DNA of 64,000 nucleotides, from positions 868,001-932,000 of the forward strand of contig CP126199.1 of the NCBI GenBank assembly GCA_030272155.1, written 5' to 3'. Source of the DNA: Tetradesmus obliquus (Eukaryota > Chlorophyta > Chlorophyceae > Sphaeropleales > Scenedesmaceae). Each line of letters opens with the position of its first letter. Position 1 is the first letter of the stretch. Made by a program: the position numbers and the translations under genes. A model generated the notes under the pieces. The model was given only the letters and a program-made list of their open reading frames with translations, was not told where the DNA came from and searched no databases. This document shows, piece by piece, positions 7,298 through 63,100 of the stretch.

Positions 7298-9166
7298 TGA
7301 TACAACAGCAGCAGCAGCAGCAGGCCTGCCTCCCATGCTGCTGTCCTGTTACGGCTCCTACGGCATCCGCGAGGCTGTAGCGTTTGACCCCGAGCTGCTA
7401 CAGCTGCTGGATGGCTGCTGGCTGCTGGCTGTAGCACATGTGCGCGGCGGCGGCTGGCTGGGCAGGCGGTGGGCTGAGGCAGGTAGAGGGTTGGGCAAGC
7501 CAACTGGTGTGGCTGACTTGGCGGCTGTTGCAGGCTTTGTGAAGCAGGTGAGGCGCTTGCTAGGTACCATGGCCAGTTGTCTGTGGCTTTGCCAAAGCCA
7601 GTGGCAAATGGCAGGAGGTGGGGGACAGCAGCTGACCAGGCAGGGTGCAGACATGCAGCTGTGAGAGCCAATCACACATAGTAAAAATGTACATATGCAC
7701 TGCATTGCGCATGGTGGCGGCTGGCTGGGCAGGCGGTGGGCTGAGGCAGGCAGGGGCCTGGGCGAACCAACAAGTGTGGCTGACTTGGCGGCTGTGGCCA
7801 ACTTTGTGAGGCAGGTGAGGCACGTGTTGGATCGAGGATTGATGAGCCCGTGCTTGTGTAGTTGATGCAATGTGTGGGGCAGCGGCTGGCATGGCAGAGA
7901 GTGGACACAAATTTTCTGGCACTACAGCAACTGTGGCTGATGTTACAAAACGTCAAGCATGGCCATACACACACCCTCAGCTACTTTTGCTATACTACTG
8001 TCGCTGCTGTCCCTGCTTTTGCACCTGCCCTGCAGGCTGGCCTGTGCAGCTCCCTGTGTCTGCAGGGCTCCTCTGCTGGCGGCTGGCTGGCTGCCTCGCT
8101 GCTGCTGCAGCAGCCGGGCTGGTTTGCTGCTGCAGTGCTGACCGTGCCATGCCTGGACCCCCTGGGCCTGCTGCTGCACAAAGGAGACGGAGCACTGGAG
8201 CTGGGGCCGGCTGCTGCTGATGCACAGGTTGGTGTTAGCCTGATGTGCTTCTATTAGCTCTTCTTTTGGTCCAATGTGCCTCGCATTATCTGGCAAGGGG
8301 ACTCATGTAGCATCATGTTGATGGAGGACTTGCATTTGGTGGCATGGAAGCAGCCTAAGGGACTCCACACAGGCTGGTGTGCTGCTGCACAAAGGGGACG
8401 GAGAACTGGAGCTGGGGCCAGCTGCTGATGATGAGCAGGTGGGTGGGATGCACTGAGCAGGTGTTGGTGACAGGTCAACATATAGACATGCATGCGTGCA
8501 AGCTGCTGCACTCAGGGGTGGCCAGCTGGAGATGGGGCCAGCTGCTGATTGTGAGCAGGTGGGTAGCGAGGCATAGTTAATCCATGAGCGCGGGTAGTCA
8601 GCACGTCAACAGACGGCATGCATGCAGGTCTGTGTCGATGCAGTTGTCAGATATAAAACACGGAGTGGAAGAAACAGCACAGCTTGCTGGACGAGGCAGG
8701 TGCCTTTGAACTGGCAAGGTGTCAACTGTCGACAGGTTTGTGTCACAAACCCTGGTGCTGTGGATGTTGCTGCCTGCAGGTGTACAGCAGCAATGCGTCA
8801 TGGGCACCGTATGACCTGCTGGAGCAGATGCTGTACCCCGACCCTGAACCTCAGCAGCAGCAGCAGCAGCAGCAGCACCAGCAGCAGCAGCTTTTGTCGC
8901 TGCCACATGTGCTGATCAGAGCAGCACTACACGATGTAGAGGTGCCAATAGACAACCCTGTGAAGGTGCTTGCACGCATGCGGCGCCTAAGCAGTGTCAA
9001 CAACCAAGAGCAGCGGCAGCAGCAGCAGCAGCAGCCCTTGCTGCTGCTACGGGTGCTTCCTGGCGGGCACTTGGCTTTTGAGCAAGACACCAAGGAGTCT
9101 GCTTTCAAGCTGGCTTTCCTGCAGGAGGCTGTGAATGAGGGGCACAGGCCCAGCAGCGGCCACTGA
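4447..9166 (+). CDS. S9A prolyl-oligopeptidase family (oligopeptidase B-like), four exons
   Basis: Serine peptidase that in this family cleaves short peptides after basic or proline residues. Exons 4447-4761, 5067-7547, 8036-8227 and 8780-9166, all phase 0, sum to 1124 residues; typical members have about 700. Exon 1 gives a Ser/Arg-rich leader that may be an organelle transit peptide, then RPHSETWHG and DEYSWL, the N-terminal family signature. Exon 2 holds the propeller, swollen by Q, A and S runs, and the FDPELL and HVRGGG blocks. The nucleophile is in GSSAGG (exon 3); the Asp is in LHDVEVP and the His in PGGHLAF (exon 4), so the triad is intact. The first ATG of the open exon is used; earlier exons are not excluded. 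Copies of the 3' edges of exons 2 and 3 lie in the following introns. Spacing around the third and fourth exons is slightly short for the family, so a tiny exon may be missed. Confidence 0.85.
4773..4835 (+). repeat. CAG trinucleotide tract in intron 1 of the S9A gene
   Basis: A nearly pure run of AGC/CAG units occupies the first part of the intron just after donor GTAAGC. Comparable runs inside exon 2 (for example 5570-5612 and 7255-7296) are translated as serine. Confidence 0.9.
7709..7830 (+). repeat. intronic copy of S9A exon 2 3' edge with donor
   Basis: About 120 bases repeat the end of exon 2 starting near 7440: the GGGWLGRRWAEAGRGLG coding block, the VADLAAVA block, the final Gln codon and the GTGAGGC donor. 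The copy lies 270 bases downstream within intron 2. It has scattered substitutions but its donor is unchanged. Translation stays open through the copy, which suggests a fairly recent tandem duplication across the splice junction. Confidence 0.85.
8378..8567 (+). repeat. two intronic copies of S9A exon 3 3' edge with donors
   Basis: The end of exon 3 (8172-8235, coding LLLHKGDGALELGPAA and followed by GTTGGTG) recurs at 8378-8447 with donor GTGGGTG. It recurs again, more worn, at 8506-8567 with donor GTGGGTA. All three lie in order on the same strand. The second copy still reads LLHKGDGELELGPAADD. They look like successive tandem duplications carrying a 5' splice site. Confidence 0.85.
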
Positions 9167-9427
9167 GAAATGTCAGGGGTGTGTGCACTGCGTGCTGGCA
9201 TGGGGAGGCAGAGTTTGCGACATCGCGGGTCTGTGGCTGTACAGCCCTTTGCGTGCTGCTGGAACGTTTTGGGCCACCTGTCAGCTGGACTGCTTTACAC
9301 ATCAACATGTTCTATGTGCCCTTCACCAACCAGGGTTTGTCATTGTACGAGTGCTTTAATCAGCACAAAGCTGCAACGGCTCGTTGGATGTTTGGCCTGG
9401 GTGTTCTGAACAGCCCGATGAAATTCA

Positions 9428-9432
9428 TGTAA
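9428..9432 (+). terminator. TGTAA polyadenylation signal of the S9A gene
   Basis: TGTAA lies 262 nt after the peptidase stop codon. The convergent ABC-transporter gene has its own TGTAA on the other strand at 9465-9469, so the two transcripts end almost on top of one another. Confidence 0.55.
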
Positions 9433-9648: not shown

Positions 9649-12600
9649 TCACCGCTGGGCTCCTGCGCTGCTAGGCCGCCGCTGCTGCTGCTGTTCTGGC
9701 TCCTCTGGCGCCTCAGGGGAGGGGGCTTCCGAAAACTCCACATCCGAGGTACCTGCAAGTACACAGCAGAAGACAATGATGCAGCATTACTTGCAGCAGG
9801 ACTCAAAGCAAGCAAACACGCATCAGCTCCCTGTCCCCACCGCAGTAGATGTGTATAGACATGCAAGCCGTCCGCCAGTGCAGCAGTGCTGCGCTGCAAA
9901 GTATCAGCTCACCCAAGGCATACAGCAAGCAAGAGCTGCACCAACCGCACCAGGGAACACATTCCACTCACCTGTCTCAGCTCGCCGCAGCATGTGGTAG
10001 CGCCGTATGCTGGCACTGCTGTTCACCAGCCGCCTCACCCCACCCTCTTCATCCTCTGCTGCCCCACCCCCGCTGCAGCTGCTGCCCCTGCCGCTGACCC
10101 CGCCCTCTTCTACACCTGTTGCCAACTCCCCCAAGCTATCTACGCCGATCAAACCAGGACCCTCGTCATCATCGCCAGCAGCAGTAGCAGCAGCTGAGTC
10201 AGCAGGGCTGTCCCCTCGCTGCTGCTGCTGCTCTGCTGCTGAAGTCTCCTCCGCATCATCTGGCTGCCGCAGCAGCAGCTTCAGCGGCCCTTTTACACCC
10301 CTGCTGACTTCACCCTGCAGCAGCGATGCCCCAAAGGACTTGTCTCGCGGCAACCGCGCTGCTGCTGCTGCTGGCGCTGCTGCTAGGCCGGGGCCTGGGC
10401 TGGGTGAGGGCGGTATGCTGCAGTAGTCCTGCTGGCGGCTCCACATGCTGCAGTACTGGCCCCCTTGCTCGATGAGCTGCGCGTGCGTGCCCTGCTCGAC
10501 CACCTGCGCAGCGCAAAGAAACCATGGCCGCTCAGCATGCAGGCAAAGGGTGCTGTGCTTGTCTGTTATGTGATTGATGTAGCATGCAGCACCTGCTGGA
10601 GCACAGCAGAGTGCCCTGCGCCACCACCTGCGCAGCACACAGGGCACCGCAGCATATGACACACCTTGAGCAAGCCATGAAGAAGATTTTGACATGCAGA
10701 CAGTGGAAGGCTGCTGAGCTGAAGTGCTGCCCGTACTGTTGACGCCACGGCGCATGCAGCAGAGTGACCAAAGCATGCTGGCTGCAGGTCAGAGCAGCAG
10801 AGCATAGCGAAGGAAGGGTAGCCACGCCCTTTTGCACAACCCCAATGCAGGCTGCCACACTGCGCAGTGCTACTCCGCACAGGTTCGGCTCGTTGCAAAG
10901 CTGCTCTGCAGCCACCCAGCGCACCTTGCCCCGTTCCAGCACCACGATGATGTCAGCATCCATCACCGTGCTCAGCCGGTGCGCCACGATCAACTGCAGC
11001 AGCAGCAGCAGCGCAAGCAGTAGCAGGAGTAGCGAGCAGTTATGGCGCAGATGCATCTCATTGCAGCGCATGCCACGGCACATGGTATTCCTGTATTTGT
11101 ACCCACAAAACTGGGAGGACAGGCTATTTGGCACGCTGTTTGTACACTGTTCCTCGCATATCTTGTATCGCTGCCAACCGCCACTTCAAGCTGACACATC
11201 AACAGCAAGCCCGCCACCATCACCACCAGCTGTCACCACCCAGTCGCCCACCTGTGTGCACCGTCCCCTGATAGCAGCCAGGCTGTCCTGCACCATCTTC
11301 TCAGTCAGGCTGTCCAGTGCACTCGTGGCCTCGTCCAGCACCAGGATGGCCGGCTGCTTCAGCACGGCGCGCGCAAACGCCACGCGCTGCTTCTCACCGC
11401 CAGACAGCCGCAGCCCACGCTCACCTGCACAAACAGGTGCGGCCATACAAGAGGTTACAAGCTGCCAAGACACAGCCAGGACAGCCAGGACACAACAGGA
11501 TGCTCTGTGTGTTGGTGTGCTGAGGTGCGCTAGTGGATGTCGAGGCAGTGGCAGCAGCAGCAGTGGAGGCAAGTGAAGTGCAACGCTAGCCAGACTGCTT
11601 CAACGCTGTACTAGCCTGCACATGCAAAGATGCTGTGCAGAGCTGTTGGCACACAGTGCTTCCATGTTTGCTTGGCAAAGACTGTGCGGCATGATGGTGT
11701 GCTGCTGCCACTCACCCACGCGCGTGCTGTAGCCGTGTGGGAAGCGCGTGAGGTGCTGGTGGATGTGGCCAATCTCTGCTGCCTCGTACACCTGCAAAGC
11801 AGCAGGCAGCAGAGCGAACACCTGAGAACCATGACAACCAAACAAGTCAACATAGTATGCAGAACCGCTTCTCATGCTTGCAATACTGGCGGCTGCAGGA
11901 GGACAGGTGTGCAAAACATTTAGAACCAGCTGTACGCAGAATGCACCATGTACTGAGGTTTTCACAGCAATCAACCAGGGCACATGCAAATGTGCCAAGC
12001 ACGCATGCAAAAAGCAGCCTAATGTGTGAGAAAAAACACAACACACGAACCAGACAAACTATGCAACCGCCACACCTGGCTGTCGGTGGCTGTGGTGCGC
12101 CCGTAGCGGATGTTGTACATGATGGTGTCGTTGAACAGCACCGTGTCCTGCGGCACCACTGCAATCACGCCACGCACGCTGGCCTGGCTGCAGTGCCGGA
12201 TGTCCTGGCCATCGATGAGCACCGCGCCGCCTTGGGGGTCGTAGAAGCGCAGCAGCAGTCTGCAGGGGCAGCAGCAGCAGGCGGTACAGCACGAGAACAG
12301 AAGCGACTTGATGATCGTGACAACAGCCCTGACGCCACCTAGCCTGCTCAGCTGGGTGACTACCCCCACAGACAGCTGTTAAGTATTGTCTATGCAAAAC
12401 AGCTGCTGCCCACGAGAGAACTGCAGGAGCATTTGATAAGTGCAGAGGCGAGACAGCAGACACCTGGCCTCCCAGCTTTCAAGCATTCAGCTTTCAAATG
12501 AAACAAAATCAGACTATTCACCTGAGCAGCGACGACTTGCCGCTGCCTGTGCTGCCCACGATGGCCAGTGTCTTGCCGCCTGGCGCGGTGAAGGACACTC

Positions 12601-15600
12601 CCTTGAGCACAGGCTGGCCCAGCAGCGGGTTGTAGCTGAACACGACCTGCGATGGCAGCGGCAGCAGCAGTAGCAGCAACAGCAGCAGTGACAGCAGCAG
12701 CGATGGCAGTAGCATGTCTGGTCGATGTACGGTGGAGCCATTGCAAATGCTCCTTTTCTGTGTCGCTGGCGCAATGATGCTTTGCACACGCCATCTGGCC
12801 AACAGACCTCGCATGCCGCACAATTGGGGTAGCAACGCAGCAGATGTGAACATACAACAAACCATTATATGGCCTGCCAACAGAGCTGCTCCAGCAACAT
12901 GATTAAAAATAGAAAACTCACAGCTGAGCCAGACACTCACCTCCTTGAAGTCCACGCGCCCCTCGCTCACACGCAGACTACGCGCTCCCGGCTCATCAGC
13001 CACCGCTGGGGTGGTGGCCAGCAGCTCAAACATGTTCTCCATGTCAATCAGCGCCTTCTGCACCTGCACGGGTGACGCAACACGTCAACACAACGCTCAA
13101 TAAGAACGCTGTTAACATGTGCCGTGGCCAGCAGCTCAAACATGTTCTCTATGTCGATCAGCGCCTTCTGCACCTACAGCGCAGTGCGATGTGTGGTACA
13201 CAACAAATGGGCCTTGCACACAGCCTGCAAGCCCCCGTACTACTATTGTAAGGCACATGCTGTGTACTAAGCTGTCATCTCCCATCAATGCATGTGTACA
13301 GCATGCTGCAACACACTGCAATGCACCTCACGGCCCGCAATTCATGCATCACACTATCATACCACAGAGACTCTTACCTGGCGGTAGTAGCTGCCGAAGT
13401 ATGTCAGCGGCACGTACAGCTGCTGCATCATGGTGATGAACAGCACGGTGTCACCAACAGTCAGGCTGCCCCTGCTGCTGCCCCACACGCACACGATGAG
13501 GCCTGCGGCCAGGCCGATCCACACCACCATGCTCTGCACGATGCTCAGCAGGCTGAGGAAGGCCAGCTGCCAGTACTCCGCAGCCTGCAGCAGCAGCAGC
13601 AGCAGCAGAGTGCGGAAACATTGGCAAGTGCGCAGAAGCATCGGCTGGGCTGTAATGAGCGGCAAGGCACGGCAGTACAGGCGAGGCTGCAGATCACTGC
13701 GGCAGTAGCCATGATAACTGTGCGAGTATGAGGCCAGATTGCCTCACCTGGTACTGCCGTGTGGCCTTGTCGTACAGCGCCAGCTCAAAGTCTTCATTGC
13801 AGAAATACTTCACAGTCTCGTAGCCCAGCAGCACGTCCGTTGCCCTGCTCTCACGCTCATTGTCCAGGGCGTTCATGACTTTGCGGATCTGCAACAGCAG
13901 TGGTTGATGTGGGTGCATGCAATCTGGAGTATGTGCAAGGGGTTGTTCGCTGCTTTGCCGAAGCACAGGCAGCTGGTACAGCCTCACTTCACTTGTAACA
14001 TTGGTTGCTGCTGAATGCAAGCAAGTGACTTGAACCAAACAGTAGCTAAACAGGCAATTATACTCGCTCCAAGAGCAACCACAAGCCACAAGCATACCAA
14101 CAGCAACAATTGCACTACCCTATTCAGTCACTGCACCCTACATCAAGAACACATTGCAGTCCTGCTAGCACCCTCAACAGACCCACCTTGCCCCTGCGCT
14201 CCGTGATGCACACGGTCAGCGGCACGTAGCTGCTGACTGTTACTAGCACGATGCCTGCCACCCAAGGTTGCATCTTGGTTGCTAAGTAGCTGCAGGCCAC
14301 CACGATGTCGATCATCTGGGGCACCACGTTGAACAAGATGATGTTGACAATGTCCTGCATGCAGAATAGCAACAGAACAGCAACAGCAGGCTTCACTACA
14401 TGGTCTCAAGACAGCTGTCCTGCAAGCAGCACATGAGGCATCACAATAAACAGGATCACATGGACGATGTTCTGCAAACATAGAAGCAAAAGAACAGCAG
14501 CAGCAAGGTTATGTCATGGCTTTGACACAGCTGTCCTGCAAGTGCAGCACAAGGCAGCAGCCAGCATGCAGTCTCAGGCCAACTGTGTCCCTGCTGCACC
14601 TCTATCTGTACACAAGCAGTATGCTCAACAGATGGTTCTCCAGCCCTCAAAACACAACACTAAGCAGCAACCGCCGCTGCCCGCACACCTGTATGCTGCT
14701 GGTGCCCCTGTCCAGGATGCGCATGATCTGGCCGGTCTTGCGGTGCACGTGGAAGTTGAGGTCCAGCGCCAGCAGGTGGCCAAAGACAGCACAGCTGATG
14801 CGGCAGAAGGCAGCCTACAGACCAGCAAGACAGGTGTGTAACCCAGTGGCAAGTGAGTCCACAATGCTTGCCTGTGTGTTGTGGCAAACATTCCATGCAA
14901 TGCTGCAGGCAGCAAAGCGCTGCACTAGCATGCTGGCTGTCACAGGCAAACATCGCATGCTGTTGTGCAGGAAGAATCGTGTGCAGCACTGCACCGCACT
15001 ATCTACTGCTATCAGCATAGCTGCCAGTAGGCGTGTCTGCAAGCTACACACTAGCAAGATGCCTGCATGCAAGCCTAACATCAGCTTTCAAGAGACCTGA
15101 CAAAGCCAAACAGCTGCACCCCAGGTATCGGATTCGCTAACATGCAGGCCAAACTGCTTGCAGGAAACATGCCACTGCTTGGCCTGCACAGCCACTTACC
15201 TGTGTGATAGGTATCCACAAGATATCTCGCACGTTTGCAAGCAGCCCCTCACTGCCGCTGCCGCCCCGCAGCAGGAAAGCTGCAAGGTAGATGAATACCC
15301 AGGGGTAAAACAGCACCCAAAAGGGCGCCAGCAGCTCCGCACTGCCACCAGCAGCAACTGCTGGTGCAGCAGCAGCTGCAGCCATTGTTGTGCTTGCAGC
15401 TACTCCAGCTGCAGCAGCATGTATGCTATGGCTTGCTTCGCTGCCCCCTGCTGCTGCTACCATCAGAAGCCGCAGGCCTGTCCGCAGAGCCCCCATCAGG
15501 CCGCTGCCATCAGCAGCTGCTGCAGCTGCTGCATCAGCAGTAACAGCAGACAGCACCTCCACCATGTGCTTGAAGGCAATGGGTGCTGCGAGATTGATAG

Positions 15601-17324
15601 CTCGCTCTGCCAGCACGAGTATGAAGCACGCTGCTAGCCGCGTTCGCAGGATACCTGTGGTAGGCCACACATACGCAAAAGCAGATGCTGCCATGCGCCA
15701 TCTGCTGTCTCCGGGCCGCCTGCAGTACAGCAGAGTTACCATCAAGACACGCAGGGGGGCCCTGTCAACTGAAATTCTGCTCTATGTTTGTGGCAAAGCA
15801 GCTGGCATGGCGACAGTGCAGACGCTGCCCTGTCTCATGCAAGAAATCTTGCAAGAGCGTGCGCTGCGGCATCAAAGGCAGCGCCTGGGCAGACACGAGC
15901 TCTGGACTGCTGCTGTGTACACGCCAGCCACTAGCAGTGCACAACCACGTCAATTAAAGCCAGCAGCATTCTGCACCCGTGTCATTGCGGCATGTGCTGT
16001 TGCATCCATGTGCTGTTGCATCCATGTGCTGTTGCAGCCATGTGCTGTTGCAGTCATGGGCAACGTACACAACAGAACATCAACTCACCACATAGGCAAC
16101 TTATGCTTGCTCTTGCCTGCCTCCTCATCCTCCCCTGGCAGCTGCTGGTAGCTGCCCTGCCGCTGCCCAAACCCGAGTCCTGCAAACATTCCTGCAGCCC
16201 TGTGCGGGCTGCCGCCATTCACTCCATTGCTGCCAGCATGGTGCATCTGCGGCTGGTCAAAGCTGCTGCGCTGCAGCAGCTGGTGCTGCTGAATGATGAC
16301 CTCGCTGATGAGCAGCCCCGTCAGCAGCACCAGCTGCAGCCCATGGACCACCACCCTGCAGCAGTAGCAGCCGCGCCAGCATGATTGTCGTGGATGTGAA
16401 ACGAGCCAACAATTGCATGGCAGCATGGTGCTGCTGCAAATCCGGTGGGCACCAGCGCCCCTGCAGCTGCCGGCCCTGTGCAGCAATTGGACGCCACCGC
16501 TACCAATGCCAGGTGCACACCAGTCATGATGCATCTCCAACAGCACAGCGCAAGCTGCCACACAACCAGCTGCAGGACAATTAATTATGTGCACTGATGG
16601 CATGCCTTTGGCGCACCTTGCTACATGTTCAGCATCAAATTGACCACCAGGCCGCACAACTGTTATGTCTTCGGCAAACAACAGCCCGGGTTCCAGCAGT
16701 GCAAGCAGCAGCACGCCGCTGAGCCTCAGAGACAGCTGCGTCGGCCATCGTGTGCACAACACCACCTGCAGCAACAGCATAAAAGTTTAGGTTCATCTGC
16801 TGGTCTGCATAGCACGCGGTGATGCAGGTGTGGCAGGCATGGGCTGGTGGCTGGTTTGTTTGCAGATGTGCCAGCAGTAGCTTCACCACAACAGCACATC
16901 AGCTTGCAAGGCGCGACAAGCTGCATGTGCTACAAATATGCAGACGTTGGTAACAAGACAAATAAGCCTTGAACAAGTAAAGCACGTGTGCACTGCTATC
17001 AAAGCAAGACGGTAAACAGGATCCTGAGCGCACCAGAGTTGAGAGATACAGCAGCAGTACTAGGAGCTGTGACAGATCTATCCAAGTGAGCCCGTCGGTC
17101 GTCAAGTGGCTAAACAAACGAGCTGTCGACAGCCCCAGCTGCAGCAGCACAAGAGACACATAGACAGCGAGCCTGCCATGCTTGAAGCCCCTGTACTTGT
17201 GCTCGTATTCAGGACAGCAGTGCGCCTGGCGGGACTGTTTGCACGCAAGGAAGAGGAATACCGCGTTAAGCGAACTTACTACAGCTATACAGCCGAAATA
17301 ATACAAAAGTGCCTGCGGGTCCAT
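9649..17324 (-). CDS. ABCB6/HMT1-type ABC half-transporter, 16 exons
   Basis: ATP-driven exporter of the ABCB ATM/HMT group, typically in vacuolar or mitochondrial membranes moving metal-thiol conjugates or porphyrins. Exons: 17034-17324, 16617-16765, 16089-16355, 15200-15719, 14689-14814, 14187-14354, 13748-13888, 13378-13584, 12941-13063, 12522-12646, 12076-12259, 11716-11791, 11252-11424, 10925-10993, 9972-10503, 9649-9752. They sum to 1084 residues with every phase matching. Exons 1-3 encode the extra N-terminal membrane domain (TMD0) that marks ABCB6/HMT1. Exons 4-9 are the six-helix domain with [17 protein letters not shown] and [18 protein letters not shown]. The ATPase is complete: Walker [42 protein letters not shown] and the VAHRLST switch His. 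A long acidic Q-rich tail is added. Exact substrate cannot be read from sequence. Confidence 0.93.
10606..10640 (-). repeat. intronic copy of ABC exon 15 5' edge with acceptor
   Basis: On the minus strand this repeats the CTGCGCAG acceptor and the first bases of exon 15 (VVEQGTH becomes VVAQGTL). It lies about 115 bases upstream of the true acceptor at 10503. The acceptor is unchanged. Beyond about 35 bases similarity fades. Confidence 0.7.
13124..13180 (-). repeat. intronic copy of ABC exon 9 5' edge with acceptor
   Basis: About 55 bases match 13013-13067 almost perfectly: the start of exon 9 ([18 protein letters not shown]) plus its acceptor, here CTGTAG instead of GTGCAG. It sits 113 bases upstream of the true exon start. 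Only four or five bases differ, so the copy is young. Confidence 0.85.
14438..14548 (-). repeat. intronic copy of ABC exon 6 5' edge and flanking intron
   Basis: The block 14321-14430, covering the first codons of exon 6, its acceptor and upstream intron, is repeated about 117 bases further upstream. The copy is worn; its acceptor region reads GTTTGCAG. Both copies share the AGAACAGCA-rich intron and a TGCTTGCAGGACAGCTGT-like end, so the unit spanned intron and exon. Confidence 0.75.
15991..16054 (+). repeat. 16-bp minisatellite in ABC intron 3
   Basis: Four tandem copies of CATGTGCTGTTGCATC, the last two with GC or GT endings. It lies in the intron between ABC exons 3 and 4, close to the donor at 16088. 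Confidence 0.9.
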
Positions 17325-23314: not shown

Positions 23315-23648
23315 CTGCAAGCAGTGGATCACCGCAGCGGCAGCCTTCATAGCAGCATGCGCTCAACACAGCAGCACTGCACACCAATGCACGCTTGCTG
23401 CAAACGCCAGTCATTGAACCATTGTATGCCTAACAAAGCATGCACAGAACATGCCAGGCCGGTGATGCAGTGCAGCTCAACGGGACTGCCCGTAAGTCGA
23501 ATACGCATTGACTGCCGCACTCACGATGGGTCACAGGTACATGCACTGCGATGCAAGGCAAGAAATGCATGCACGTGAGGAATGCGCGAGCTGCTGCCCA
23601 TCCCAGACAGAAGCGGTGGCTGTAGAGTGCACCGATTGCTGCACCAAC

Positions 23649-24215
23649 CTGGCAGGAAGCACCAGCACCAGCAGCACCAGCACCAGCAGCTACGCCTGCA
23701 GGGCAGCAGCCTGCTCCTGACCTGAGACTGCAAGTGCTGGCGCAGCCCGTAAAGCTGCTGCATTGCATAAGCCTGCTGATGCTGACAACAAAGCGACGAA
23801 CTTGCACGTCCTGCCGTCGCTGCTGCAACAGCCGCAGCGGCCAGCTGCACAGTCTCTTCTCCTGCAGCAGCTGCAGCACCTGATCCACTGCTCGCAGGTA
23901 CTCGCAGACTGAGCTTGGCGCCAGCTTGTCAAAGCCCTTGAGCAAGGCATCTAAATTGCGCTGCTGCAGCAGCACGTCCATCTCTCTGCTGCCGCCAGCA
24001 GCAGCTGACCAGCGCTCCATCACAGCACGCTCGTCACAGCTGACCTGGCCCGAGGGCCGAGCCTCAGACAGCAGCTCACAGACCTGATCCAGGGTCAAGT
24101 GTCCTGCAAGTGACAGAGCTCTTGGCTGCTGGTGCTGCTGCTGTCGCTGCTGCTGCTGCTGCTGCTGCAGCAGCTGCATAGCAATTGACTGCTGGGGTAG
24201 GGTGAGATCTGGCAC
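23649..24215 (-). CDS. module copy 3 (WSAAAGGSR module), exon of repetitive locus
   Basis: An open exon of 189 codons between acceptor CCTCAG (24215) and donor CAG/GTTGGTG (23649). It holds a glutamine run and then LDQVCELLSEARP, ERWSAAAGGSREMDVLLQQ, LDALLKGF and CEYLRAVDQVLQLLQE. Two paralogous modules with the same order lie at 24511-25115 and near 26.2-26.8 kb. All end at the same kind of donor. No known domain name fits. The copies may be spliced into one long protein after the SBP/ankyrin part, or be decayed exon duplications. Confidence 0.45.
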
Positions 24216-24510
24216 CTGAGGAAGATAACCGCAGCAGCAACATTCACAGCAGCCTGAGCAGGCGGCAAACATAAATGCACACTTCTGCTGGCTGATGATG
24301 CATGAAAGGAACTGGCGAAGCTGAGCGGTGCAGGCGCAGCTCAAACAGCCTGCCCATAAGGCAAATCACCCCCTGGTCTGCGACAGCAACATGTTGTTAA
24401 CACGAGGCTGCAATGCAAGGCATGCATGTGAGTAGTTGACTGGGCTCCTGCCCAATCCCAACTAACAGCTGTGGCTGTACAGGATCAGAGCGCACGGCCA
24501 CTGCACCAAC

Positions 24511-41615: not shown

Positions 41616-41652
<37 letters not shown>

Positions 41653-42251: not shown

Positions 42252-42300
<49 letters not shown>

Positions 42301-45300: not shown

Positions 45301-47561
45301 GCAGCGTGCACAGCATCATGCTGGCAGCCATCACACGTCAACAGCCACAAACAAGGTACCGCAACCAGATGTATGATGCGCTGCCTCACTGCCGGCAGCC
45401 GCCACATCACGCCCCAGCTCAGCACCCCGACCAGCATCGCATTTCATCCAAATACCAATATCCTCTGTTATAGCCACTGTTTGAGCAAATAAAAAATGTA
45501 TTGCCTCACCGCCAGCAGCGGCCACATCAGACCCCAGCTGAGCACTGCCCCCAGCATCATGCTCCATGCCACACACATTTCACTCAAAAGCTCAAAACTC
45601 TCTACAGCAGGCAGTAACAGAACATAGTAGCTTTCTCACCGCCAGCAGAGGCCATCAGCCCACAGCTCATCACTGCCCTTAGCATCATGCTCCATGCCAC
45701 CACGTGCGGCACCAGCATGCCTGAAGCTTTGTACTTTTACTGAGACCCTACACAAGTCACTTACCGCCAGCAGTGGCCACATCAGCCCCCAGCTCATCAC
45801 TGCCCCTAGCATCATGCTCCATGCCACCACATGCGGCACCAGCATGCCTGCAGCTTTGTACATTTACTGAGACCCTACACAAGTCACTTACCGCCAGCAG
45901 TGGCCACATCAGCCCCCAGCTCATCACTGCCCCTAGCATCATGCTCCATGCCACCACATGCGGCACCAGCATGCCTGCAGCTTTGTACATTTACTGAGAC
46001 CCTACACAAGTCACTTACCGCCAGCAGTGGCCACATCAGCCCCCAGCTGAGTACTGCCCCTAGCATCATGCTGCATGCCACCACATGCGGCACCAGCATG
46101 CCTGCCCCAATGTACTGCTGCTGGAAGTCAAAGCGCCAGGTCCAGGCTGCTGCTGCCTTGCCAAAGGTGGGCAGGCTGGAGAAGCCGCAGCTGTAGCTGG
46201 GGCCCTGGAAGACCCTGCGGGACAAAATAACAGTAACAAGTAACAAAATAATGTTGAAGTTTGGTGAATGTTTTAGTGTAAATCACCTTGACAGCATACC
46301 TATGCAGCCAGTTGATGCACTGGGAAGCATCGGTCCACTGGGGCGGGGCTGCAGCTGTCAGTGGTGGGTCACCCACCGCTAAGCAGCCCAAGTAACAAAA
46401 TAATGTTGAAAAATGAATGTTGCAGAATCACAGGTACATGTAACAACAATTAAGCTTGATACACGTTAGGATGTTTTGCCAAAGGTGGGCAGGCTGGAGA
46501 AGCCACAGCTGTAGCTGGGAACCTGGAAGACCCTGCGGAACAATGTAACAGTTAAAAACAGTTGCAAATAAAACATGACTTTGAAGTGTGCAAGCCATCA
46601 CAGCTGCCATAGCAGGTTGACAGTGGCCGGCGGTCACCACAGCCGCGTCACACGCAACTTGCTTGAGTGACTGCGTGTGCAGTTTTCCATTACCCCAAAA
46701 CACAGCAGAGCTGTCAGATTCCACACACAGATACACACCATACGTGTCCATACGCATCCATGGCTTGATCATGCCAGCAGCAGGCTCTGCTCACCATTTG
46801 AAGGCGTCAAACAGGACACAGATGCAGCGTTGACGCACCTGCCCTGCTGGCTGGTCTGCACAATTGCACCAAGCCTGCTCACCACTTGAAGGCGTCAAAT
46901 AGGAATGAAGCGGCTGCGCTGACCGCCAGCAGCTTCACCTTGGCCGCCGCTGCTGCCGCCTCTGCCCCGCCCTGGCTGTGCAGGCTGAGGATCATGTAGC
47001 CTGATGCACTGCCACTGGGGTACGGCAGCCTGGCACAGCAGCAGCAGCAGCAGCAGCAGCAGCACACGTATACATACATTCACACATGAGGATCATATAG
47101 CCTAATGCGCTGCCGCTGGGGTACGGCAGCCTGCGGCATTACATATACGCGTACACGCATGGCGGTGAGGCATGCAGCGCAATGCGCTCTCGTAATGAAC
47201 AATATTAGTTGATTGGAGTGGATTGCTTTCGCAGCCCGTGGGGTTGCATATGTGCGCGTAGACACACGCAGTGGCAGTGGAGCATGCAGCGCACTGTGTT
47301 CTTGTAACGAGCAGTATGGTTTGTTGCAGTGCACTGCTTTTGAAGCGTTGCTGCTGGGTGGCGGCCGAGTTTAAACGTATAGCCAAGCCACGTGTGAACT
47401 CAAATTTCATCGTCTTGCAGCATCGTCATTGCCCGCACCTCCAGTTGAGTATGAGCAGGTTGCGCAGCCCCAGCAGCGCAAACATGCCTGCAAACGCAAT
47501 CAGCAGCAGGTAGGGCCACACGCGCTGCGGCGTGGGCTCGATGACCGCTTCTGCAGGCGGC

Positions 47562-49683: not shown

Positions 49684-50883
49684 CTACTGCTTCTGCTGCT
49701 CGACGTTGGTGGCCCTCTCCTTCAGCAGCGTCGGCACAGTGTTGACAAAAGCTGTCACGTGGCTTGCTCCAAAGGCCTTAGCACGCTCAGGGCTCCAGCC
49801 AGTTTCCGCGTTGGGCGTGTCTGCAGGGGCAGGGCAGACACAGAGTACACATGCATCAATGCTACCAATATATCACCTAGTACGCAACTGCTAAGTCTAT
49901 GCTGCGGCGGCCGAGAAAAGCAGACATGTGATCGGTTAAATTTGTGATCGGTTTAAAAGGCCTTGGCCTGCTCAGGGCTCCAGCCGGTCTCTGCATTGGG
50001 CGTGTCTGCGGGGTGGCAGCAGATACGGAGGACATTTATCAATCCACACCAGGAATCAGTGTAGGGTGTGTGGTCCCAAAACACTAATCAATCATGAAAC
50101 TGCTGAGTCGGTGTGCTGCTGCTGCTGAGAAAAGCAGCCATGCAACCGGTCTCAGAAGGCCTTGTCCCGCTGAGGACTCCAGCCGCTTTCTGCATTGGGC
50201 GTGTCTGCAGGGGTGCAGCAGACACCAGGTGGACAAAGCAGCAGGCAGCAGTGTGCGACGGGCTTGTTGCACAGCAGTGAGTGCAGTGCGGATGCATCCT
50301 CCACTAGTCACAGCTAGCAGCAGTGAAAGTTGCAATTGGCAGACACATGGCCTGCCACAAGTCTCCCTGCACTCCTGCATCAAAGGACAACGACATGGAG
50401 TGCAGAGTTTGGCGTGAGCCGTGACAGCACCTCTGCTTTCTTGTATGTGCAGCATGCGCCCTGTGCAACATCCAAGAGGTACTACCTCTAGTAGCTTAAA
50501 CTCTGCTGGGTGTGCTGCTGCTTGACTTCAATTCAGCCGTAGCATAGCGACTTGGCCAGCATGATGCAGCCGTAGCATAGCAACTTGGTCAACGTGTGCA
50601 CCCACCTGTGGTGTCCTTGAAGGGCTGCTCCAGCACCAGGCTTAGCGTGTTGAACATCCACTCAAGCCAAGTCATAACAGTTACAACTGTTACATAACAG
50701 CTGTATGTGTGCACCCACCTGTGGTGTCCTTGAAGGGCTGCTCCAGCACCAGGCTCAGAGTGTTGTACTTTTGTGCATTGGCCTTGCTGGCGGTGCTCAG
50801 GTTGGCACCACCAGGGGGCGGCAGCGCATAGCCCAGCTTGGTCTGGAAGTCCGGGCTAGCTGACAGCAGTGCATCTGCAGTGG

Positions 50884-50950
<67 letters not shown>

Positions 50951-52908
50951 GTGTATGTCATGACCTGGCAGCAGCGCATAGCCCAGCTTGGTCTGGAGAT
51001 CCGGGCTAGCTGACAGCAGCGCATCTGCATTGATGGGAGCAGCAGCAGCAGCAACAGCAGCAACAGCAGCGGCGGCGGCGGCGGCGGGGGCGGCAGCAGG
51101 GTGTATGTCATAACCTGGCAGTGCATAGCCCAGCTTGGTCTGGAAGTCCGGGCTAGCTGACAGCAGCGCATCTGCATTGATGGCAGCAGCAGCAGCAGCA
51201 GCAGCAGCGGCGGCGGCGGCGGCGGAGGCGGCAGCAGGGTGTATGTCATAACCTGGCAGTGCATAGCCCAGCTTGGTCAGGAAGTCTGGGCTGGCTGACA
51301 GCATCGCGTCTGAGATTAAGTTCCAGATACGCAGGTGGCAGCAGCAGCAGCAGCAGCAGATGCAGATGCAGATGCAGCAGCAGTGCTGATGCCATTGCTG
51401 GGATGTTCACAAGTATGCCCAGGGCTGCGTCTGCAGCAGTGTCACTCCTCACCATTATGTACCACTGGGTTTGCACCACCATATACCGTACTGCCACAGG
51501 CACGGGCACATGCACAGGCACAGGCACGTACCCACACACCCACGCACACACTCACACTCCCCCGCTCACCCAGGAAGAAAAAAAGACACACCCACAAGCA
51601 CAAGCGCACGTGCACAAGCGCACATACCCACACACTCCCCCACTCACCCAGGAAGCAGTTCTGCAGCCCCTCCAGGTGGGCACCCCAAACATGCTGCCAC
51701 AGAAGTTGACAGGGATCTCCTCGTCACCATGCACATCTAACAGGAAGCCCAGAAAGGTGGCAATGATGGCGCGACATCCTGTGCGGCACACTGTGCCTGG
51801 CAGGCGCACACCGGCACAGGCACACAACAAATACACACCAACACATGCGCACGCGCACGTGCACAGACGCGCATACCCGCACACTCCCGCACTCACCCAG
51901 GAAGCAGTTCTGCAGCCGCTCCAAGCGCGGGCCCCAGGCAGGCACCCCAAACATGCTGCCACAGAAGTTTGCAGGGATCTCCTCGTCACCGTGCACATCA
52001 AGCAGGAAGTCCAGCCCAGTCGCCTCGATTGCACGGGACACAGCGAGCACCTGGAAGGACGGTGAGGTGATTGCAGCACAACTCAACATGTGGTATGCAT
52101 GTGTCAGCTGTGTGGGGCACAAGGTGTCGCCATGCAAACATTGGTTGCAAGTTTGAAGGAATCTCTCGTCACCATGCACATCAAGCAGGAAGTCCAGCCC
52201 CGTGGCAGCGATGGCTTGGGACACCGCCAGCACCTGGAATGATTGTTAAAACCGTGACACAGCACAGAGCATGCGTGTGTGAGCTGTGATGTGTTTCAGG
52301 ATGGGGCCGAGCCGCCGCAAAAAGTGTGTCAACAGTCCAGGAGGCCGCACCGTGCCCCACAGTGCTACTGCAGATGCGCTGGAGAAGCAAAGCCTGGTCG
52401 ATGGTGCTACTGCAGACTGGCAAAATATGTCAGCTGGGCACCGCAGGGCTCAAACGGTGATTAGCAGTGGTCAAGGCCTGCCAGGTTAAACACTGGTCAA
52501 ACACTGTTGTTGACTGCAGGTCCATAGCAGCAGATGGGCCGCGTCTCACCTCAGGGCTGAGCTCAGCGCTGGGTGCCGCCCACTCCCTGTTAAGGTTGCT
52601 GCCGACAGCATTAGTGCGCAGGTGACCCCTGCATATACACACACAACCGCAATTAAAACGTGCCCCTCGGAGGCAGTTACAGCAGCATGAAAGTGCAAGC
52701 TGACAACTGCAGCGAGAGCACGCCAGCAAGTGCTGTCTACAGCACATACAAAAGGAAGCGCTGCAACACATGGAGTTTGATGCTGTTCATGGGGGAAAAT
52801 GCAGAAGCACGCCCGGTGTGTCACCTCACGGAGCCGTCGGGGCACATGTTGGGCACGATGAACAGCACGGCCTGCTGCAGCAGCTGCGCCACGTCAGCGT
52901 CACCACCA

Positions 52909-52946
<38 letters not shown>

Positions 52947-54762
52947 CCCCTCTGCTGTGAGCCGCTCCAGCAGGCCCTCTGCAAACCACTCCGCCATGGA
53001 CTCCCCTGCAGGGCGATGGAAACAAATTCCGCTTTTTCAGCTGCTGGATGATCGCAGAGAGGCTTACTGGAATGCAGGCCGTGCGGCGGTGCAGACTGTT
53101 CTTCTGGCTGTACGCCTCTGGCATCATATATTGCAAGCATTATCATCATCATGTTATGTTGCAAGCATTGTGCTGTGCACTGACGAGGACACACGTTACA
53201 AGAGCAGAAACACAGCTGCAGGCCCACCTGGGTGCTGCCGGCAAATGACCCAGATGACTGCCTTGTCAGGAGCAGGGGTTCCAACCTGTGAGCAACGCAA
53301 CAGCAACGCGAGGGTGGCGGGCACACACAGCTCCAGGAGGCACAGACTTATGCGCAAGTAACGCATCGCTGTTGCTGATTATTACACCTGCTCCTGCTGC
53401 TGCTGCTGCTGCTGTCATCTTTTGCTTGCAGCACTTTGCACACCATGCTCATGGGACACATGCACACAATGCAGGTATCCTGCAAGCCAGCCGACAGCTG
53501 CCTGCCTGATCTGCAACACTGTCACCCTTCCCAGCAGTTGCCTCAACATGTCATCACAATATGTAGGTCAGACTCTGCCGAAATGATTCATGCCTGGTCT
53601 GCAGCATACCTGCAGCATGTGTAGGTCCCGGCCATCAAGGGTGCGGCCCAGCAGGTGCAGCTGCACATTGGGCCGGTGCTGCAGCGTGAACCAGGGGATG
53701 TCAGCAGGCAGATGTTTGCCCAGCAGCACAAGACACACCCAGCAAGCAGCAGCAGCAGCAGCAGCGGCGGCAGTATGATCGTCAGTGACTGTAGCATGCA
53801 ACGAGCGGCACATGCCGCTGTGCTGCTGCTGCACGGCGCTGCAGCAGGCGCATTGTTGCCTTGAGTGCGTGTGATTTGACACATGCCACAGATCACAATC
53901 CATGTTCAAACTGCTTCCCAGCTGTTCCCCTTGCTGTCTACAGTGCTACTGCAAGTGTTGCCACCCACCTGCATGCGCATGACCAGCTCTGTGTGCCGCT
54001 CCCAGCTGTACGGAGCAAAGTAGGCATAGCGCACGCACGGCTGCGTTGGTGTGTGGCGGATCGTGAGCCTGCCTGCTGCATCGTCATATGCTGTGTCCAC
54101 CCTAAACCAGTGGGTCATGTCGTAGCTGGCTGCTGCTTTGTAGCCCTGCCAGGCAGACGCATAGCTGGCACCGCCTGCAGAGCAAGCGCGCATACAAAAT
54201 GTGAAATTCCTGTCGATACACATGTATGTACGACTTTCGCGACTAGCACATGTGCAAAGGCTCAGTGCACAGCGCAGCATGCAGCCCCACCCCAAGGCAG
54301 CCATGCGTATCTGAGCAGCAACCAGCCGGCTGTCCCCTCCTGGCAGGCCTTACTTGCGTTCACGATGTGCATGGTGAGCGGGGTGCCTCTGGGTATGGCG
54401 GGTTTGACTGCAAAATATTCTTACATGTAATACGTCCAGCACCTCTACTACTATGCTCACCTGCGTTCACGATGTGCATGGTGAGCGGGGTGCCAGCTGA
54501 TGTACTGACTTGGAAGTGGAACCACTGGTAGTGGGCCTGCGCATCTGCAGGGCACACAGCGAAACGGACACACACATACAGCCAGTCAGCAGCGCTGTTG
54601 CCATATCTTCTTCACAGCTTCATTCCTGCCTTGCCTCAGAGAGCCGACTTCAATGCCAAACAGGTGATGTGTTATGCAAGCAGTCGACCTGGCGTTGCCA
54701 CCCTGTGCTGTGCCCTGCCAGAGCACTAGCCCAGCCCTGGCAGGGCTTCTGCTTCTGCTGCA

Positions 54763-54793
<31 letters not shown>

Positions 54794-57373: not shown

Positions 57374-58955
57374 GACAAGGGGCCTGACAGCTGTCAGGGC
57401 GAGCAAGCCCAGCCAGCCAGGCCTGCAGGGGAACAGCAGCAGCAGCAGCAGCAGCACAGCAGCAGTGACCTGCAACCACTGCTGACATCAGCAGCAGCAG
57501 TAGCAGCTGAGCAGGAGCAGCTGAGCCGTGAGGTTGCATGCCAAACAACACCACCGGCATCACCCACAGCAGCAGCAGCAGCAGCAGCGGCAGCAGCGAC
57601 AGTGCATGCTCCTAAAACAATGTGCTGCCAGCAGATGCACCTAGCTGACCCAGAGATGCAGCGCGACAGCAGCGTATACGTGCAGGACCAAGACCAGCGA
57701 CAGGCGTCATCAACAGCAGCAGCAGCAGCAGCAGCAGCATCAAGTGCTGCCATGGCAGAGGCAGGGAAGCCTTCTGGCTACACAGCAGGCAGCCAGCAGG
57801 GCAGTGAAGAGCAGCACAGCGAGCAGCAGCTGTTCACGCTGCTGCTGTCAGGCGTGCCTCAGAGCTTCAGTGAGGCTGAGCTGCTGCCGCTGCTGCAGCA
57901 GGTGGGAGCAGGAGGCAGCATATCTTGCTTGTGTGTATGTAATATATGCCAGTAGCAGCTGCAGATACGTGCTAGGAGCTGCGTTAGCCTGCACTGCCCG
58001 CTCTCAGGACAGACAAACGACAGTCACAGTGCTTTTCACCTCAGTGCACAGACAGTTTAAGTGGTGGTTGCATTGTTCATTGGGCTGATGTCAACGCTTG
58101 CAGCATGCACGGCACAGCAGCCCCCACAGCACATCACAACACATGCACTCGTTTTGCATCACTGAGGCAGGTGCCAGCAACCCACTGCCAGCTGACGAGC
58201 CAATGCATTGTTTCAACTTTAAACTTGCTTTTTATTGCACCATCCACCCACAACAACTAATGTCAGCTGCTGCTGCTGCTGCTGCTGCTGCTGCCGCCGC
58301 CGCTGCCACCCACAGCATGGAGACGTGGCTGCATGCAGCGTGCTGCGTGACAGGCACAGCGGGCAGTCCCTGGGAGGGGCCCTGCTGAGCTACAGCAGCA
58401 GGCAGGCCGCTGACAGTGCCCTGGCAGCACTGCAGACTGTGCAACTGCCAGGAGCGGAACAGGCCCTTGAGGTGGGTGGGTGGCGGTCACTGCTGACCTA
58501 ATATAATATTGTTTTGATATGCTTTATGTGAAGAGTCTCGTCAACGTGTAGCAGCTGATTGCCGATAGTGCGCGGTTTGCGTCGTTTCTGCTGTGGATGC
58601 ACCCACAGAGACATATGACTCGAGCTGCGCAACACCGGCCTTCGGTTGCTGACACGGTGACGCGCCTTGGTGGCGTGGCTGCAGCGCAGACCTGCGCGCT
58701 GAGGTGGCTGCGCATGTATGTGCTCAAATAGTCAACCTTCTTGTGTAGCATTGGTGCAAATAGCGGCTCAACCTAACCTCTCTAAAACTGTCAAATTGGT
58801 GCATTTGTGATGCTGCATGCGCCACAACAAAGCCAGCAGTGCCTCAGAAACATGTCAGTGCTTGACCCCTCAGCTGTGGCAATGTCACTCGCAGGTGCAA
58901 TATGCAACCAACGAGGAGGGGTGCCAAACAGAGAGCTTGGAAGCACATCAGCAGG

Positions 58956-58998
<43 letters not shown>

Positions 58999-59148
58999 CT
59001 CGTCCTCGCAGCCACTGGAGGTGGCTGCTGCTGCCGCTGCAGCAGCAGCAATGGCAGGTCTGCCGCCTGCAACCGCTCTGCAGCAGCAAACACAGCAACA
59101 GGAACAGCAGCAGGCGGCCCAGCCGCGGCTGACACTGCTGCAGCAGCT

Positions 59149-59179
<31 letters not shown>

Positions 59180-59471
59180 GGGGCCGGCGGGTCGCAGCAG
59201 CAAGGTGTTGACGCACAGCAGCAGACTGAGCAACAAAAGCAGCAGCAGACTCTGCCTGAGGGTGTCATGGTAAGTTTATGTGCAATCTGCGCCCCTGGCA
59301 TCAGCGCACAAGTTGTTTTGCAGCAGCCTGCACGTGGTGATGGCTAAGGCAGCAGCATACAGCACATTCACTGTTTTGTCTACATAGCATGCAGTGCTAT
59401 GGGGACCACTTGCTGCGGCGACAGGAATGAGCCTGCGTCACAGGCCGGCTTGACTTGTGTGCCGCTGCTGG

Positions 59472-59502
<31 letters not shown>

Positions 59503-60092
59503 GCTGCTGCAGCTGTTCTTTGCCAAGGTGCCGCGCAGTGCGGCAGCCGAGCAGATCAAGCAGCTGTTTGCCAGGTTTGGGGAGGTGCAGCAGCTGGACC
59601 TCTTCGCAGAGTACCCGGTGCGTGCCGCGCTGCTGCTGCTGCTGCTGCTGTTGCTTATTGTGCAGCAACATTTGCAGCGTGACGTGCGAGTAGCGCAAGC
59701 GTATCTGATGACGCTTCACTGCGCTTGCAATCCCATTCCATGCCGTTTTGGCTGCTACCGCTCACAACACAGCGACCTGCCGCCACCCCTGCCGCGCTTC
59801 CTTTCCAACTACTTGCTGCAGGGCGCCCCAAGCAGCAAGGGCTGTGGCCTGGTGGCCTTCCCATGCTGTTTATTGCCGCCGTTTGCCCAACTATAATGTC
59901 ATTTGTCCTGCTTTTTCCGACTGCAGGGAGCTCCCAGCAGCAAGGGCTGCGGGCTGGTGGCCTTCACCAGCAAGGACTCCGCAGCAGCAGCCATAGAGGT
60001 GCTCTGCAACAAGTACATCTGGCCAGGCATGCGATCCCCAATGGTGGTTAAACTCATCACAAACAACCCGGGCAAGCCCTCAGAGGCCGGCC

Positions 60093-60130
<38 letters not shown>

Positions 60131-63100
60131 CCGTACTCGTGGAACGTCGGCAGCAGGGACCGAGGGTTTGCGGCACGGCAGTACGATCTGCTGAGCATGT
60201 ACAGCAGAGAGGGCCAGGGAGGGTACGGCACAGGCGGGCGGGATCTGCCGGCAGCGGCAGCGGGTGCGCTGCGGCTGCCGCACCAGGATGTGCTGCCGCG
60301 AGGTTGTGCGCCGGATGCGTATAAGCTGTTTGTGGGCAACATACCCAAGACATGCACAGAGCGCGAGCTGCGGCAGGTGCGGGTTTTAGGGTTTAAAGGT
60401 TTGGCGCTGTGGTTTGTCTGTGTCAGAGTGATGCGTACAAGCTGTTTGTGGGAACACACCTAAGACGTGCACAGAGCGCGAGCTGCGGCAGGTGCCAGGT
60501 TAAGGGTTTGAAGGTTTGGCGCTGTTGTTTGTCTATTATGTCAGATTGATGTGTACAGGCTGTTTGTGGGCAACATCCCCGAAACCTGCACAGAGCGCGA
60601 GCTGTGGCAGGTGCGGCTTGTAAGTTGTGAAGGTTTGGAGTTTGGTGCTGTGGTGTGTGTGGCGCAGTGGTGCCTACAAGCCGTTTGTGAGCAACACCCC
60701 AGGAGCGCGCAAGCAGCGCAGAATGCAGCAGGTGCGGAAACCGCAGCAGCAGCAGCAGCAGCTGCTGCGGGCTATGTCTGACGCTGCCCATCATGATGAC
60801 TGCAGTGTGAATGTATGTTACACCAAGATTGACTGCAGCCAGCTGAGCACTGTTTGCATGAAGTGTGAACTCTGACCATGTGGCTCGAACAGCGACCACT
60901 GCTGTGCCTGTTGTATTGCGGAATTGCCTGTACATTGGGTACATTACCTACATTGGGTACATTACCTACATTGGGTACATTACCTACATTAGGTACATTA
61001 CCTACATTGGGTAAGACGCTGGCTGATGCATTGCCTGCTGCTGCTGCTGCTGCTGCTGCTGTGTGTTTGTGTGCTGGCAGGTGCTTGAGAGTGCCGGGCC
61101 AGTGGTGGAGCTGGTGCTGCTGCGTGACAGGGTGGCGCGGGAGTCCAAGGGCAGCGCCTTTGTGTGGTATGCCTCAGCACGCGATGCCGACCGGGTGAGT
61201 GAAATGTTTCAGTTGGGATCATGTTGAGCAATAGCAGCTGGTTGGAGCGGCAGCTCTTGCAGCGGCAGCGGCAGCAACCTAATGCATGCTGTAGTGGCTG
61301 ACATGACAGCAGCGTACCATGTGTGCAACTGACACCTGGAGCTTGCATGATAGCAGGGGTGGTAACGGTCGACTCAAGCATGCAAATGCCTGCTTATTCC
61401 TCCACAGCCATGTTGCATCAGGTTGTGTGTGTAGGTATCTCACGCACTGCCAAACGGCAAACAGCCTTGCAGCAGGTGCAGCGTTTCAGATAAAGGCGCC
61501 GCAGCAACCTCCCCTTCCCTCCATCCGCAGACTGTGCGGCGCCAGCACTGCTGAAGTTGCCATGCAACTGCCCCTACAATCAGCCTGCACAGCAATTTGA
61601 CATGTCACGCTGCGCCGTTGTGCTGCCCATTTCTGCTGTCCCTGCTGCAGGCTGTGCAAGCGCTCAACATGCGCGTGGTGCTGCAGGCAGTGGGCTCCTC
61701 TGCACCCCAAAAGCCCCTCGTGCTTCGTAGGGCCACAGCCCGAGGCTCAAACGAGCCAACCACCACAGGCATCTACCCCGCCTATCACACCGCAGCAGTG
61801 CCAGACACGCGGCAGTACCAACCGCAGCAGCAGCAGCCGCCGCAGCGGCTGCAGCTGCCGCTGCAGCAGCAGCAGTTTGCTGGCGGGTCACTGCCTGTAG
61901 TGCATGTCGGGCAGCAGCCACACAGCCCTCAAGGCTTGGGTCAGCGGGGCCAGCAGCAGCAGCAGCAGCAGTACCAGCAGTATCAGCAGCAGGTGCACGT
62001 GCAGGTGCAGGGGCACCCCCCACCTAGCCCGCCAGGTGTGCTATCTCCTGGTCAGCCGCAGGTGCAGCTGCCTCAGATGCAGCAGCAGCAACAGCAGCAG
62101 CAGCAAGCTTGGCAGTGGCCGTTGGCATCACCCGGAGGGACAGCAACAGCAACAGGTGTACCTTATGTGGTGTACCACCAAGGGAGCTACTCCGGAAGCG
62201 TCGCAACCAGCAGCGAACCTGTTCGCAGCATCAGCAACGCAAGCAGCAGCATCCTGTCTTCACAAAGCAGCGGCCAACAGACTGCGCTGCAGAAGCAGCT
62301 GTCATCGGTTGCGTCTGCATCGACTGTTGGTGGCAGCTTTTCAGCTATGGCAGGTGCAGGTCCTGCTGCTGGCACTTCCTCTGGTGGAGGATTTCAGCTC
62401 GTGGTTGTTTCTGAGGCACCGACAGCACCTTACATGCAGCAGCAGCAGCAGCAACCGCTAGATACTCAGCAGGCATGGGCTGCAGCGCAGTCACAGGCAG
62501 CATACATGCAGACCGCACAGCAGCAGCAGCAGCAGCAGCTGTGCTATGTGCAGCCGCAGCAGCAGCAGCTGCATGTACCTCAGGGCTCCGCACCTATGTT
62601 TGTCATGGTGCAGCCCACATACATGCAGCAGCCGCAAGCTGAGCAGCAGCAGCAGCAGGACATGCAACAGCAGCAGCAGCAGCAAGACTACATGTCGCAG
62701 CAGCAGCAACAGTCGTCCGAGGTTGCGATGTGTTACCCGGTTGCTTCCGGAGCTCTAACACCTGAGCAGGTCCAGCAGAACCTGGCAGCTCTCTCAATCC
62801 AGCCTACTGACACAGGCAGTGCCTCAGGCCTTGACCTGGCTCAGCAGCTGTCCCTTCCAGGGCAGTATATTGCATCAGGCAATGTGAGTCCTGTGATGCT
62901 GGGCACAGCGCTGCCAGTAGTAACCTCCAGCACCAGCAGCGGGCCAATTTCAGGGGGAATTTCAGTCATGCCGATGCCCCCTGGACTGAAGGGTGGAGTT
63001 CACGGCGGCGTGCACACTGGAGTTCACGGTGACGTCACCGGTGCGGGTTACACCAGTCCGGCTGAGTCCCAGCGGCTCAACATGTCGCTGCAAGTGACAC

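Follow-up and report, generated by a model that had tools for sequence, protein, structure and literature searches.

Why do the edges of coding exons recur in the introns beside them? The question is raised by a 64,000-nucleotide stretch of the Tetradesmus obliquus genome (C9:868001-932000, hereafter the window; the genome comprises 104.7 Mb in 17 contigs). An earlier note on this DNA had claimed that sequence spanning splice junctions is copied into the neighbouring intron, always in the same orientation and outward from the exon, by short tandem duplications that leave freely decaying ghosts of the exon edge. Self-alignment of the window, with low-complexity sequence removed, returned 47 direct matches and one inverted match, and the offset was no larger than 910 bp in 45 of these 48. 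Twenty 10-kb stretches of the genome were then sampled at arbitrary round coordinates; the 19 that were readable (one was all N) gave 131 direct and 14 inverted matches. When the window was pooled with these 19 and five further readable 10-kb stretches of the same genome (24 stretches; 304 kb with the window), matches less than 700 bp apart were direct in 171 cases and inverted in 22, with a most frequent offset of 110-120 bp for close matches. The excess of direct matches across the 304 kb therefore indicates a genome-wide habit that is not peculiar to the window. Exon-edge duplication is confirmed as real and genome-wide, and it follows a rule sharper than first claimed.

Exon models were built independently of the repeats, from homologous proteins or from own frames recognised by homology, for seven genes: those for an HMT1-type ABC transporter, a YSL-type transporter, an RNA-binding protein and an M14 carboxypeptidase inside the window, and malate dehydrogenase (MDH), GCL and OYE elsewhere. 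For the ABC, YSL and RNA-binding genes, a purpose-written aligner fitted homologous proteins to the DNA as spliced models. For the other four the baits were own open frames, recognised through homology to solved structures (M14 and MDH) or by family motifs taken to identify GCL and OYE. The joined ABC exons showed 99% identity to a T. obliquus protein over 98% of the query; they were 100% identical to a second T. obliquus entry (OEZ86_001427) over 76% of the query and 89% identical to a protein of Scenedesmus sp. NREL 46B-D3. Counted in the longest model, the spliced ABC structures from three homologues were concordant from exon 5 onward. A search of 44 modelled exons against 700 bp on each side, with at most six hits per side and a few short or unframed exons omitted, identified 46 direct copies. 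Every one derived from the exon edge that faces it: 41 touched that edge to within 2 nt and the other five lay within 23 nt. No copy among the 46 was of mid-exon sequence or of the opposite edge, and an otherwise identical search of reverse-complemented flanks, the flipped-strand control, yielded none. The orientation and the outward placement of the copies are thus as the earlier note had described.

The 44 exons present 88 edges, of which some mark where a model ends and are not proven splice sites. A copy was present at 28 of them (13 donors, 12 acceptors and three stop codons), so the majority of edges have none. Stop ends were copied in three of the four searched, YSL in the window and MDH and GCL elsewhere; the YSL C-terminus recurs past its stop and the MDH C-terminus recurs twice. 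The claimed splice-junction rule accordingly stands for donors and acceptors but is too narrow: with stop codons copied too, a purely splice-site account is excluded and the rule is one of coding edges. Of 33 copied splice sites, 30 had an intact dinucleotide, as had been noted for many of them. No whole-exon copy spanning both edges occurred among the 46, and tandem duplication of mutually exclusive exons was rejected because no copy reaches both edges of its exon. The expectation that duplicates cluster at coding edges rather than mid-intron, for which self-alignment had been proposed as the check, was also borne out. Random sliding of 37 non-redundant pairs in four genes predicted 12.6 pairs at edges, 6.8 in interiors and 17.5 in noncoding sequence, against 25, 2 and 10 observed; by inspection, nine of the ten noncoding pairs join two copies of one exon edge.

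The copies are set off from their edges by a narrow displacement. The copied stretch comprises about 25-120 bases reaching the coding edge, and distances to the nearest copy run from 98 to 318 bp, falling between 98 and 157 bp for 22 of the 28 edges and in no case being shorter than 98 bp. The range is alike for acceptors, donors and stops, and the displacement is therefore not due to splicing distances alone. Several edges carry ladders of constant period: 127, 254, 381 and 508 bp at YSL1, 149, 300, 452 and 603 bp at GCL4, and 150, 297 and 435 bp at M144.

Each of the four modelled genes in the window carries such copies. On the minus strand, the ABC gene (9649-17324; 16 exons, three spliced homologous proteins) has its exon 9 acceptor edge at 13014-13068 and a copy of 55 bp and 95% identity at 13124-13178, with 55 bp of unrelated spacer between (13014-13178 overall). 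Its exon 15 acceptor edge (10487-10518) recurs at 10611-10642, and the exon 6 acceptor edge, together with intron, has a tandem copy at an offset of 117 (14317-14559, 73% identity). The YSL gene, also on the minus strand, was modelled for its eight C-terminal exons (41039-46214) and extends upstream to about 48.8 kb. Its C-terminal end and stop (41039-41127) are copied past the stop at 40922-41010, with differences at first, second and third codon positions of 1:0:8. The exon 5 donor edge (42614-42645) recurs at 42506-42536, and the acceptor edge of the same exon, with intron, at an offset of 119 (42809-43076, 69% identity). The exon 2 donor edge (44957-45071) heads a ladder at 44738-44853, 44498-44602 and 44376-44431, its nearest copy differing at 0:0:7. 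At exon 1, a 127-bp tandem ladder marks the donor edge (45382-46105) and the acceptor edge (46158-46234) is copied at 46476-46552. The M14 gene (49723-53003, minus strand; five exons in a spliced model based on homology to solved M14 structures) shows a copy of its exon 4 donor edge (50707-50768) at 50594-50655, a tandem ladder with steps of about 150 bp at the exon 4 acceptor edge (50817-51383), and acceptor-edge and donor-edge copies of exon 3 at 52149-52242 and 51579-51752, respectively. On the plus strand, the RNA-binding protein gene (58316-61194; RRM exons modelled from two homologous proteins) has one acceptor edge at 59921-59965 whose copy at 59816-59860 differs at five positions, all five of them third codon positions, and a donor edge from 60314 followed by tandem copies at offsets of 116, 234 and 355 (60314-60737). 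An intron of this gene also holds an 18-bp tandem array of the TACATTGGGTACATTACC type at 60930-61013. Outside the window, several exons of the MDH gene (L033:1662-5345) are accompanied by ladders of copied edges, and the C-terminal end of this gene, stop included, recurs twice past the real stop.

The sequence between edge and copy bears on how the copies arose. Many copies stop abruptly near the coding edge, with unrelated sequence between the two members. In a list of 52 spaced pairs the ends fell, by eye, repeatedly a few bases past a donor or ahead of an acceptor, and in a motif count 15 of 24 shared donor-like motifs lay 5-14 nt from the match end. Spacers aligned to their own flanks scored no higher than unrelated spacers, a test that rests on local scores since the global-alignment null was flawed by unequal lengths. 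Significant similarity was seen for 12 of 40 young pairs, on one side or both, and for the other 28 on neither. A decayed plain tandem repeat was therefore rejected as the general account. The proposed origin in short tandem duplication survives in part: the displacement of about 100-150 bp and the homologous noncoding half of the unit (40 nt of flank) in 15 of the 46 copies support it, but more than 3 bp separates the two members in 126 of the 171 direct pairs of the 304 kb, most of which are thus not plain tandem, and the flanks are unrelated in 31 of the 46. Exonic identity is nearly the same in the two classes, 92% with homologous and 91% with unrelated flanks. A freely decaying tandem duplication should keep its noncoding half if its coding half is still 91% identical, and the class of 31 copies therefore needs either constraint or a diverged source.

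The copy-spacer-copy anatomy would also be expected of an introner-like mobile element, with the spacer as the element and the copies as long target-site duplications. This is highly improbable: comparison of the 52 spacers with the 304 kb gave three off-locus matches and no multi-copy family, and the reading was rejected within the sequence searched. Nor do we know of a target-site duplication that would be 25-120 bp long and tied to coding edges. Introners do resemble the present case in the genome-scale growth of intron sequence, but differ from it in being multi-copy elements (PMC9860276, where a term search of the main text found no occurrence of Tetradesmus, Scenedesmus or Sphaeropleales).

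Codon positions distinguish decaying from constrained copies. For 27 copies in four genes we counted 90.5 synonymous differences over 388 sites and 46.5 nonsynonymous differences over 1151 sites. The nonsynonymous fraction of.339 (bootstrap 95%.234-.438, with the mutation spectrum taken from plain tandem pairs) compares with expectations of.60 with one member free and.22 with both constrained. Over all seven genes, real edge and copy differed at 40:36:173 by codon position (69% third), with a nonsynonymous fraction of.376; the window genes alone gave 15:18:90 for 24 copies, including eight M14 rows. Copies of the same edge compared with each other (29 pairs) differed at 26:20:75 (62% third), with a nonsynonymous fraction of.488. 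Neutral copies simulated without indels and over a set of divergences of our choosing, and passed through the identical aligner and threshold, showed a third-position share of.41 and a nonsynonymous fraction of.639; the third-position share did not exceed.454 in any of 150 sets of 46 and rose to.73 when both members were constrained. As a class, the copies are therefore not the neutral ghosts that had been proposed (69% third positions against 41%). The two flank classes behave differently. The 15 copies with homologous flanks differed at 20:16:45 with a nonsynonymous share of.51, between both expectations and nearer the neutral one, and the 31 with unrelated flanks differed at 20:20:128, a pattern expected when both coding sequences are constrained and not seen in the simulated neutral copies. 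A mutational bias toward third positions was rejected because plain tandem pairs have a base spectrum that predicts none, and the idea that ectopic gene conversion supplies the constraint was set aside by reasoning. About one third of the modelled-gene copies thus fit the model of the earlier note and about two thirds differ as two coding sequences do. Unrelated flanks, mostly intact splice signals and third-position differences together imply, for the latter, lineages long constrained at the protein level.

These patterns make it unlikely that tandem duplication across a junction, with the outermost splice pair kept and the ghosts left to decay, is the whole explanation. Direction, position and unit size agree with such a process, as do the constant-period ladders, the decayed copies with stops and the neutral look of the guessed-frame sample described below, but the codon pattern in the modelled genes and the unrelated spacers beside exonic halves of about 91% identity do not. 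The constrained pattern, with third-position differences and intact splice sites and stops, would follow if the copies served as alternative edges of coding sequence, or as gene ends, on which selection acts today. That they are in use now is nevertheless doubtful: no copy covers a whole exon, inspection by eye found no consistent splice partner on the spacer side, and read-through hits stops or breaks the frame in the cases inspected. Stop read-through or in-frame extension was rejected for the same cases, in which the spacer contains stops or the offset is not a multiple of three.

A possible source of the constrained class, which we entertain tentatively, is a diverged template. Copies taken from another allele, strain or hybridising species would have noncoding sequence that was unalignable from the outset and coding sequence differing mainly at third positions. 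Copy-versus-copy differences are coding-like too, flanks are unrelated and splice sites intact, and the two MDH end copies have different stop codons and solely synonymous differences, all as this source would predict. Against it, a DNA-level search of the genome found no second copy for the three loci tested (two in YSL, one in MDH), and at the protein level only distant MDH exons of 56% and 46% identity were returned; very many exchanges and deep diversity would be needed, and a template alone leaves the 98-bp floor unexplained. We regard it likewise as possible, short of probable, that most copied edges are no relics but protein-constrained second edges. They would then be either a set of alternative exon boundaries and gene ends that has escaped recognition or fragments of diverged homologs, frozen after insertion at coding edges by a process whose inherent displacement is about 100-150 bp.

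The displacement is close to short-read length, and for that reason an assembly fault has to be weighed, in which false short duplications arise where diverged haplotypes or strains cease to align, that is, at coding edges. Copies do end at edges of alignability, the codon pattern fits, and the evidence comes from a single assembly. Such an artefact is still quite unlikely, as it does not readily yield ladders that hold a constant period over as many as four copies, homologous-flank copies with near-neutral differences, or decayed copies.

What has to be explained is the observed position, direction, displacement and genome-wide spread of the copies; behind them we infer a DNA process and a selective filter. 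The account that we favour, with a confidence only a little above even, combines local edge duplication, such a filter and a second step that concerns some two thirds of them. Repair or replication would most likely duplicate units of 100-150 bp locally, and a duplication would persist only if the old protein can still be made from the exon's own edge. Repeated rounds could produce the constant-period ladders, with introns and gene ends growing outward from coding edges. In the second step, about two thirds of the copies in modelled genes would either still be used or have been copied from a diverged homolog.

Several observations weigh against this account. The sample comprises only seven modelled genes, and it is biased because MDH, GCL and OYE were modelled only after their repeats had drawn attention. 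The enrichment at edges is partly an effect of detection, since constraint on one member prolongs the time over which a pair can be recognised. A first period-3 test was largely accounted for by one constrained member, a signal expected from one constrained copy, and it was for this reason that exon models were built. A further 32 pairs, drawn from loci other than stretch L033 and the ABC, YSL and RNA-binding genes and framed by codon usage alone, differed at 56:46:97 (58% nonsynonymous) and look neutral; some are probably noncoding or misframed, but the result still limits the claim of constraint. Some copies have plainly decayed, such as the far copy of MDH exon 5 with seven nonsynonymous changes and a stop. 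Neither use of the copies nor a diverged source was found, the former sought along splice routes by eye and the latter at three loci at the DNA level.

On the account of local edge duplication with a filter, introns and gene ends would grow outward in measurable steps that can be read as ladders, which would open duplication-driven intron growth to direct test. Should the unrelated-flank class prove truly coding-like in its divergence, the copies would be either in use or a record of exchange between diverged genomes, and gene finders would be wrong whether they call such copies debris or exons.

Duplication-based intron gain is already known; coding-edge copies with a narrow displacement differ from the systems compared here. 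In the potato RdRp gene, an intron was gained by tandem duplication (PMC4974935). As in T. obliquus, the duplication there runs in the same orientation across an intron-exon boundary. In the account given in that paper, a single event produced a new intron, whereas in T. obliquus existing introns and 3' ends are affected, copies occur at 28 of 88 edges, the displacement is narrow and most spacers are unrelated. Intron gain of the Rogers type, by AGGT duplication, likewise creates an intron where none existed before, and this new intron is as long as the duplicated unit. In the ABC gene, intron positions are common with the Scenedesmus sp. protein, spliced to the T. obliquus DNA, from the fifth exon on, and no new intron is therefore implied there. 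Repair-mediated duplication by capture of nearby DNA shares with T. obliquus the local copying, including exons and intron splice sites in copies of up to 619 bp, with filler DNA and microhomology at breakpoints (PMC2671141). That set excludes pairs within 50 bp, was detected via transposable-element insertions and reaches up to 5 kb away; unlike in T. obliquus, no tie to coding edges or to a displacement of 100-150 bp appears in the parts of the paper considered. Minisatellite-like arrays have similar constant-period ladders, such as the 127-bp one at YSL exon 1, but the T. obliquus ladders begin at coding edges, and most copies are single and non-tandem. Among the top-ranked matches in the open-licence literature, none of the titles or abstract openings described the copying of coding edges as a habit of a whole genome.

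Other repeats in the window include similar pairs in the S9 peptidase and secreted-protein genes, for which self-alignment is the evidence. In the S9 gene, on the plus strand, a stretch at the end of the first long exon (7441-7554) recurs at 7706-7821 with 86% identity, at a putative junction (7441-7821 overall). The first exon of this gene is one long open stretch, about 2.4 kb in length, with many CAG-type repeats (5112-7574), in contrast to its intron-rich neighbours. Bigger than the edge copies and different in kind are three diverged direct copies of a coding-like block of 0.3-0.55 kb, spaced 0.86-2.6 kb apart at 23552-26776. The sole inverted match of the self-alignment pairs 1546-1586 with 3669-3709, 41 bp at 95% identity and 2.1 kb apart.

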